Shown: positions 4,060 to 10,702 of the stretch, piece by piece
Position numbering within the stretch: the stretch's first letter is position 1
Layout of the letters: every line of letters begins with the position of its first letter
IMG/VR virus record: IMGVR_UViG_3300028025_001283
Location: 1-26,230 of that record
DNA from: a virus
Strand: one strand, 5' to 3'
Length of the DNA stretch: 26,230 bases
Translations under genes and position numbers: made by a program
The notes under the pieces: generated by a model
What the model saw: only the letters and a program-made list of their open reading frames with translations
The model's database searches: none
Told to the model about the DNA's origin: nothing

Positions 4060-4072
4060 GGCTTTTCCAAAT

Positions 4073-4096
4073 AAAAAAAGCCCTAGGTGAGACTCT
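4073..4096 (-). terminator. Intrinsic terminator ending the candidate small RNA
   Basis: The 3' arm of the long closing stem (4079-4096, pairing with 4133-4150) runs directly into seven T residues on the minus strand. It should stop transcripts from the local promoter and at least some read-through from the upstream operon, before the DUF1376 start at 4059. Confidence 0.65.
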
Positions 4097-4154
4097 CGAT
4101 CAATGATCGTTGGAGGACTGGTTAGTACCAGCAGAGTCCCATCTAAGGCTTACT

Positions 4155-4176
4155 AAAAACACGCCTCCAAGCGTGT
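4155..4176 (-). promoter_or_regulatory. 5' hairpin with T run and SD-like loop
   Basis: On the minus strand the arms ACACGC (4171-4176) and GCGTGT (4159-4164) enclose the loop TTGGAG, followed by TTTTT (4155-4159). By itself this could be a weak terminator. It sits at the very start of the candidate small RNA, about six bases after the predicted start point. The loop plus the next G, UUGGAGG, is exactly complementary to CCUCCAA in the three-way junction downstream. It may be a pseudoknot partner or a built-in copy of the antisense target. Confidence 0.5.
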
Positions 4177-4188
4177 GCTACTACCAGA

Positions 4189-4217
4189 ACTATACGCTTT
4201 TGTTCCTAATCCTGCAA
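4189..4217 (-). promoter_or_regulatory. Sigma70-type promoter for the candidate small RNA
   Basis: On the minus strand, TTGCAG (4212-4217) and TATAGT (4189-4194) are separated by exactly 17 bases. The -10 box matches the consensus at five of six positions and the -35 at three. Transcription would start at the purine at about 4182, just before the 5' hairpin. It lies in the gene-free gap downstream of the 4260-4697 gene. Confidence 0.55.
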
Positions 4218-4259
4218 GTCTTACAAATATCACTACTCTTAAACTGGATTATCGACCGA

Positions 4260-4697
4260 CTACGCTTGCAGACCGGACATAACTTCGTTGAGAACTGATA
4301 AGTCGTTTCCTGTTTCTTCTTTTGCTCCATTGCTTAATCCTATGTGGCAGAAGTCCCTTAGTGGCTGACCTCTTGGTGAAACTCTTGGTAAAAAATACTT
4401 GCTCGATAATGGCGTAAACGGCTTAGGTTCACGTGGCTTAACGTACTCCACACCTTCTATCTTGATACCCTGCTTGAGCTTGCCAGAAGGGCTGTAGGAG
4501 CCTTTAAACTCCTTTAGCAACCCTTCCCTTACCAGCTCGTCAAACTCGCACCTGAGATTCGCTAAAGTCGGTGCGTTCATCATTCCGTAAGCCTCAACAA
4601 ACTGCTCAGGACTTAGTGGATGATTCTTGAGGAAATTCATGCAAATTTTATATCTCTTAGTGCCTTCTTTCGGCAGCTCTTGAAACATATCACTCAT
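4260..4697 (-). CDS. Putative winged-helix-like protein
   Basis: A 145-residue protein. Residues 14-65 (KRYKICMNFLKNHPLSPEQF, then TLANLRCEFDELVREGLLKE) look like two or three helices ending in a beta hairpin, as in winged-helix domains. A basic segment (YSPSGKLKQGIKIEG) follows. The C-terminal half is Pro- and Lys-rich, with PRVSPRGQPLRDFCHIGLSN near its end. I do not recognise a specific family. The probable role is DNA binding or regulation. It is the last gene before the 200-bp gap with the small RNA, so transcripts through it may end or be controlled there. Its start overlaps the end of the 52-residue gene upstream by eight bases. Confidence 0.7.
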   Translation of the reverse strand: MSDMFQELPKEGTKRYKICMNFLKNHPLSPEQFVEAYGMMNAPTLANLRCEFDELVREGLLKEFKGSYSPSGKLKQGIKIEGVEYVKPREPKPFTPLSSKYFLPRVSPRGQPLRDFCHIGLSNGAKEETGNDLSVLNEVMSGLQA

Positions 4698-10181: not shown

Positions 10182-10702
10182 CATTCTCTCCAATGAAACA
10201 TCCACCAAATACCATATAAAATAGCTGTAGCACACGCTGTACCTACGATAGCAGCGATAATGCTTTGGATTAACTGCATCCTTTCAGCCTTCTTCCTAGC
10301 TATCTCTCTAAGCCTCATACGCTCTATACGAGCTTCTTCCTCAGCTTCTTCTTTAGCAGCAGCTACAATAGCGTCCCTACGAGCGCACATCTCCTCGTAT
10401 AAACCTGTCTCACCTGAGTTATTGTAGATAAGCATTTCACGTAGCTCGACTTCCATGCGATACAGCTTACGTGATGCAAAGGTAGCGTCTAGTGCTTGTT
10501 TGGTTGCTTGCGATAGCGTTATATTCGGATTCTTCTTGGCTACCGTATCAACAACAGCAACAGACTTAATTTCAGCTTGTTTCTCAAAGAACGTAGAGAT
10601 ATCGTGATAGCACTCTTGTATCTCTTTGCCGAGAGCAATAGCTCTTTTAACTCCAGCTACAGCAGCCTCAGCAGCAGCAAAGGCTACCGCTACTTCAATC
10701 AT
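10181..10702 (-). CDS. Coiled-coil protein with C-terminal membrane anchor
   Basis: A 173-residue protein. The N-terminus is Ala-rich (VAVAFAAAEAAVAGVKRAIA). A long helical region rich in Glu, Lys and Arg (AKEEAEEEARIERMRLREIA and further) leads to one membrane span (SIIAAIVGTACATAILYGIW) and the short tail WMFHWRE. I recognise similar proteins next to lysis genes in marine and freshwater podoviruses, without a proven role. It may be a virion or lysis accessory protein. Overlaps at both ends couple it to the holin gene and to the small membrane protein upstream. Confidence 0.7.
   Translation of the reverse strand: MIEVAVAFAAAEAAVAGVKRAIALGKEIQECYHDISTFFEKQAEIKSVAVVDTVAKKNPNITLSQATKQALDATFASRKLYRMEVELREMLIYNNSGETGLYEEMCARRDAIVAAAKEEAEEEARIERMRLREIARKKAERMQLIQSIIAAIVGTACATAILYGIWWMFHWRE

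Follow-up and report, generated by a model that had tools for sequence, protein, structure and literature searches.

A C4-like RNA with two pseudoknots upstream of phage replication genes

Immediately ahead of phage replication genes lies an RNA element, here termed the C4-like RNA, that is, judged by its compensatory sequence changes, a large and real RNA family, with at least 131 distinct true copies collected, mostly from phage contigs in IMG/VR. From its sequence, it is a compact new relative of C4 antisense RNA in which a single molecule unites the antisense segments with their targets, and transcription of the replication genes is probably under its control. The family is absent from Rfam 15, and no description of it was found in the open-access literature, subscription papers being outside the search. 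Its presence at a control point of phage DNA replication, in environmental contigs and in cultured Burkholderia phages, would link the classic immunity RNA of phage P1 to replication control, and the cultured carriers make this idea testable.

The C4-like RNA in the window

The window is the whole stretch of 26,230 nucleotides that was analysed, and the C4-like RNA is the element on its minus strand at 4217-4073. The following features can be identified.

4190-4330, minus strand: upstream 46-aa ORF with a CxxC...CxxC zinc ribbon (PHROG 38162, weak, E 4e-5)
4212-4217, minus strand: -35 box TTGCAG, by sequence reading; the promoter is enriched in relatives
4189-4194, minus strand: -10 box TATAGT after a 17-nt spacer, overlapping the stop codon of the 46-aa ORF
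near 4182, minus strand: predicted transcription start, by sequence reading
4159-4176, minus strand: P0, the 5' hairpin, with a 6-nt a1-like loop, UUGGAG (4170-4165)
4165-4170, minus strand: 5' strand of pseudoknot PK1, the P0 loop UUGGAG; partner 4115-4110, by covariation
4151-4156, minus strand: 5' strand of pseudoknot PK2, UUAGUA, b1-like; partner the P2 loop at 4127-4122, by covariation
4133-4149, minus strand: 5' strand of P1 (7 pairs, a conserved mismatch, 9 pairs)
4118-4131, minus strand: P2 hairpin, CUGG-UACUAA-CCAG, with a b'-like loop (4127-4122) that serves as 3' strand of PK2
4110-4115, minus strand: junction segment CUCCAA, the 3' strand of PK1, a'-like
4098-4108, minus strand: P3 hairpin, of varying length and sequence, pairing always kept
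4080-4096, minus strand: 3' strand of P1, forming the closing stem with 4149-4133
4073-4079, minus strand: U7 tract immediately 3' of P1, an intrinsic terminator by sequence (6-9 U in 128 of 131 copies)
4060-4072, minus strand: ribosome-binding region, 13 nt from U-tract to start codon
3406-4059, minus strand: downstream DUF1376 gene, primosomal or replication-initiation (Pfam PF07120, 6e-18; PHROG primosomal and replication initiation)

The original prediction had named a TTGCAG/TATAGT promoter with 17-nt spacing, a 5' hairpin, a three-way junction and a T7 run, and all were found (at 4217-4212 and 4194-4189, at 4176-4159, with stem 4149-4133/4096-4080, and at 4079-4073, respectively). As read on the minus strand, the promoter is of the sigma-70 type, and the junction is closed by the P1 stem, which is followed by U7. 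The closing stem has 17 positions, or 18 if A4150-U4079 is counted, and with that pair the predicted composition of 15 Watson-Crick pairs, two G-U pairs and one mismatch (A.C) is exact. The minus strand has a minimum free energy of -45.8 kcal/mol (z -3.1, with 1 of 200 shuffles equally good), and the plus strand folds well too (z -3.6), so that the strand is not settled by a single sequence and relatives are needed. A covariance model of the family scores 106 bits on the minus strand of the window versus 18.7 bits on the plus strand, in agreement with the minus-strand RNA originally claimed. The claimed gap in the replication operon does exist, but is smaller than it appeared (approximately 4189-4060), since the 46-aa ORF, which is shorter than the 50-aa cut-off of the ORF list, ends within the promoter. 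The DUF1376 gene is the first of a primase-helicase block, and the genes that follow the C4-like RNA in the window are DUF1376, primase, helicase, HNH and VRR-NUC.

Copies and compensatory changes

For the first alignment, IMG/VR supplied relatives of the DUF1376 protein and of the helicase, and 25 distinct copies of the gap were alignable straight away. Such an alignment of related phages had been proposed as a check on the original prediction, and it revealed compensatory changes in the stem, with pairing kept. In the same 25 copies, compensation also links the P0 loop with the junction, and the strand preceding the stem with the P2 loop; both of these covarying pseudoknots, PK1 and PK2, had been missed. 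A sequence-pattern scan of viral contigs gave at least 120 matches. A T-run ends 131 of 131 collected copies, with at least 6 T in 128, and a promoter score of at least 8 out of 12 is reached by 79% of copies versus 15% of shuffles, the distance from the end of the -10 box to the hairpin region being 6-7 nt in 26 of 43 copies.

Covariation was evaluated in 44 diverged copies (<86% identity). Over the full structure with both pseudoknots, 96.3% of 1760 paired cells are kept as compared to 79.4% in column shuffles, changes on both sides of a pair number 287 versus 69, and 29 of the 40 pairs vary on both sides, whereas sliding the pairing partners lowers pairing to 31-43%. Every helix in this set, including PK1 and PK2, displays compensated variation. 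For instance, P3 is 100% paired and all three of its counted pairs vary on both sides, and the P1 mismatch is located at pair 8 in 33 of the 44 copies and at pair 9 in 7. PK1 is also 100% paired, with three of six pairs varying on both sides, a count that is biased because the 44-copy alignment was chosen partly by pattern and PK1, as is the invariance of P2 and the junction; this bias was corrected by separate tests of PK1 and PK2 on other copies. In the set unselected for PK1, it is present in 25 of 25 copies, and its partners covary (CTCCAA/TTGGAG, TGCCAA/TTGGCA, CGTCAA/TTGACG, CGCCAA/TTGGCG). Among eight members that the alignment did not include, perfect PK2 pairing extends over 4-7 bp, with a mean of 6.0 versus 2.7 when partners are swapped. 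Several of these eight have an entirely different P2 stem, and in two of them (L023 and L024) the core sequence is lost and both pseudoknots are retained.

Pattern matches in genomes comprised 36 loci, only two of which (L269 and L290) are C4-like RNA. Four candidates (L262, L270, L276 and L283) were rejected as members because they are C4, and the remaining loci are chance. A Burkholderiaceae match at 31 bits (L300) was likewise rejected, and no plasmid copies were found with one query.

Position ahead of replication genes and candidate mechanisms

In approximately 120 of 125 testable copies, no more than about 20 nt separate the U-tract from the start of an ORF, and the spacing to the gene that opens the replication block is 7-15 nt. 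The family of the downstream gene varies, and includes DUF1376, lambda-O-like initiators, ParB-like, HNH and GIY-YIG proteins, and small proteins. The upstream gene is codirectional in 41 of 43 copies, and each of 12 positive records carries a single copy. Cultured carriers are the Burkholderia phages BcepMigl, DC1, CSP3 and BcepIL02, and in these phages the order is C4-like RNA, small gene, O-like initiator and DnaC-like loader. The RNA is also carried by the environmental circular phage MW202462, and on a Polynucleobacter chromosome the element is flanked by a divergent repressor-like gene on one side and by O-like and loader genes on the other, as these were identified from their sequences.

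Genes that resemble homing endonucleases recur between the C4-like RNA and the replication genes. Behind the element, as read from sequence, HNH-like genes are found in L104, L136, L178, L213 and L247, GIY-YIG-like genes in L165, L171 and L184, and a further homing-endonuclease-like gene in L299, and by their placement these look as if they had been inserted there. The DNA of the upstream 46-aa ORF resembles part of HNH endonuclease genes of Erwinia and Serratia jumbo phages. One phage record (L219) encodes a Betaproteobacteria-1 RNA (RF02932, 100.8 bits) at 10563-10680, approximately 3.4 kb from its C4-like RNA.

The best explanation for the element, and one that we hold with slightly better than even confidence, is a self-targeted C4-type leader, or attenuator, that acts on the replication operon of the phage. 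Transcription would begin at the 5' hairpin, and comparison of copies shows cis pairing of the a1-like loop with the a'-like junction and of the b1-like strand with the b'-like P2 loop. By the same comparison, the 17-pair stem closes the junction and leads into a tract of 6-9 U, with the next start codon 7-15 nt on. Stem and tract would terminate transcription, releasing an RNA of approximately 110 nt. The interval from U-tract to start codon is too short to hold another promoter, so that the replication genes would be expressed only by read-through, and thus factors that favour or disfavour the folded state would set their expression. The element had originally been described as placed to switch the replication genes; the placement directly upstream holds, and the switching itself would follow from that position. 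Other structured leaders tied to the control of transcription termination include the put RNAs of HK022 and plasmid attenuation RNAs.

Termination may not be universal, given that the U-tract is interrupted in the Burkholderia phage copies (UUUUCGUUUUU) and nearly missing in the L299 copy, and, phage genomes being compact, the short distance to the following start codon may be a coincidence. In many lineages, though not in others, the 3' arm of P1 together with the U-tract can base-pair with the ribosome-binding region (13.6 versus 12.6 with partners swapped). Examples are GGCUUUU/AAAAGCC in the window (4080-4060, minus strand) and AGCCU/AGGCU, overlapping GGAGG, in Burkholderia phages. This hairpin was rejected as a defining feature because it is not found in all lineages and is tied to sequence classes, and it could couple folding to translation, although not universally. 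No conserved alternative antiterminator was found, the competing hairpin of the P1 3' arm being missing in some lineages.

Both halves of the code are present on every RNA molecule, and the released RNA may therefore recognise nascent leaders of the same kind; such recognition may provide dosage or immunity control. Recognition of sister leaders in trans is possible because the code is self-recognising and varies between copies with identical P1 stem and PK1 loop. A tentative extension of the leader reading is that the terminated RNA binds, by base pairing, nascent leaders from the same specificity group and biases them towards termination, which would represent a measure of genome dosage or superinfection immunity at the level of replication, with PK1 and PK2 as a diversifying code.

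A doubtful, albeit possible, alternative is a small RNA that acts in trans, for instance in superinfection or incompatibility control, the nearness to replication genes reflecting genome compactness only. An autonomous promoter and terminator would suit such an RNA, as would the PK2 code, which differs in approximately half of the copy pairs with identical P1 stem and PK1 loop, as expected of a specificity code, and the related C4 acts in trans in P1/P7 immunity, according to literature cited in PMC5320573. However, approximately 1.08 Mb of carrying loci hold no second a..b target beyond control (0.097 versus 0.093 per locus), there is no conserved unpaired seed, and the place right before an ORF start is retained across unrelated gene families.

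It is improbable that the RNA is a riboswitch-like leader that senses a ligand or protein, with the pseudoknotted junction as its binding pocket and a likeness to C4 that is structural only. The compact fold, a terminator at the position of an expression platform, and the single-nucleotide linkers (G, UC, C, G), which are invariant even where P2 is wholly changed (Burkholderia phages), would be in keeping with a sensor. Against this, the linkers differ in the L023/L024 variant, the downstream genes share no metabolite theme, and it is an antisense RNA, rather than a riboswitch, that matches the core in sequence.

Far less probable still is a true C4 RNA whose pairing with the ribosome-binding site downstream would repress translation, even though the b'/a' core is common to both and phage P1 has the same order of promoter, a1b1, C4 and ribosome-binding site. 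C4 membership was judged by the Rfam gathering threshold of 45 bits, with P1 C4 as positive control (68.8 bits); the Rfam search of the window gave no family match, the C4 model (RF01695), named in the original prediction as a check, had no match there at E<=10, and other loci carrying the element had no C4 match at the gathering threshold. The start codon is too near for a2/b2 sites, and the downstream 80 nt display no a2/b2 complementarity beyond control (a' 11.7 versus 11.5 swapped, b' 9.4 versus 9.6). The initial view of a segment complementary to the Shine-Dalgarno sequence fails on this comparison, which covers both antisense segments, and also because the CCUCC in question pairs and covaries with the loop of the 5' hairpin. 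Lastly, a plain intrinsic terminator that has a promoter close by, and nothing more, would account for the stem, the U-tract and the promoter consensus, but it needs neither two covarying pseudoknots nor a conserved three-way junction, and is refuted in sequence by the pseudoknot covariation.

Relation to int-alpA and C4 RNAs

The site of the proposed self-targeted leader can be occupied by another RNA. There is no Rfam match to int-alpA RNA (RF02996) in the window, whereas in sister phages with near-identical upstream DNA an int-alpA-type RNA replaces the C4-like RNA (L085 1661+, L102 3042+, L089 3944+, L092 3822+), and there precedes another initiator or another allele of DUF1376. The int-alpA-type RNA is similarly placed after the promoter and before the replication initiator, but differs in sequence and fold and is without a U-tract. 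The 46-aa ORF is conserved upstream of both types, and in L223 both lie in tandem ahead of a DUF1376 gene, int-alpA second. Two RNA types at one position thus define a slot for leader RNAs that accepts interchangeable modules, int-alpA RNA being one. Rfam int-alpA matches are present in L317, L333, L349, L353, L373, L380 and L384, and the int-alpA-type pattern also matches viral contigs among the matches listed. In L403 (near 1257, minus strand), an int-alpA core directly follows an apparent C4-like 5' hairpin (GUACUUGGCGGUGC), an arrangement suggestive of a possible hybrid of the two types.

With respect to C4 itself, the pattern used for the viral and genome scans was written from this family before P1 C4 was inspected, and it falls inside Rfam-scored C4 RNAs in L262, L270, L276 and L283. 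RNAs of this length are very small targets for a pattern, and chance is therefore no serious explanation for the matches in these four loci. A core-only model (R2) has as its best match in 50 kb of phage P1 the C4 RNA (48368-48400, 21 bits), and the full-length model gives a weak partial match to the P1 region (11.4 bits). The original suggestion of a C4-like regulator or a new family is therefore upheld as to C4 kinship, by the pattern and the core model, but not as to an Rfam C4 match.

The annotated a1 site of phage P1, UUGACAG, is located in a hairpin loop, and a1 and b1 (GUUAGUG) are complementary to C4 CUGUCAA and the C4 loop CACUAAC. By this comparison of sequences, the a1/a' and b1/b' pairings of P1 have their counterparts in PK1 and PK2, respectively. 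Both RNAs have a b' hairpin followed by an a' segment, with a near-identical core (in P1, CUGCUGG-loop-CCAGUCUGUCAAC), and a closing stem of 7 pairs, one mismatch and 9-10 pairs. As in the c4-a1b1 module of P1 (RF03163), a1 lies in a hairpin loop and is followed by b1, and the order of promoter, a1b1, C4 body and first gene of a phage operon is also that of P1. Unlike C4, the targets in the C4-like RNA abut the body and pair in cis; C4 has a tetraloop hairpin 5' of the b' hairpin, whereas the C4-like RNA has only P3, 3' of a', and ends in a U-tract terminator. It also precedes replication genes and not icd/ant, as in P1/P7. Given that a2/b2 sites are lacking, that the third hairpin is on the other side and that the RNA ends in a terminator, it is classed here as a variant related to C4 rather than as an RF01695 member. 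In a Methylovulum C4, a and b sites are found both upstream and downstream.

P1 C4 is an antisense RNA processed by RNase P, with a' and b' loops that bind target mRNAs and specificity provided by a' (PMC5320573, PMC8198154). In the window there is no GGW, relevant to RNase P processing of the C4 5' end, at the base of the P1 stem. Clusters of C4 antisense RNAs are present in Neisseriaceae bacterium ESL0693 (L283 4623-6966, with six within 2.4 kb; L276 7098-7893; L262 6233-7494), and are reminiscent of the multi-copy C4-like sRNAs of A. baumannii. The Group 1 C4-like sRNAs of A. baumannii resemble the C4-like RNA in that a 5' stem-loop precedes the C4 body on the same transcript (PMC5320573). 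These sRNAs are host-encoded, processed, present in approximately 20 copies per genome and called by the Rfam C4 model (PMC5320573), whereas the C4-like RNA is present as one copy per phage record, ahead of the replication block.
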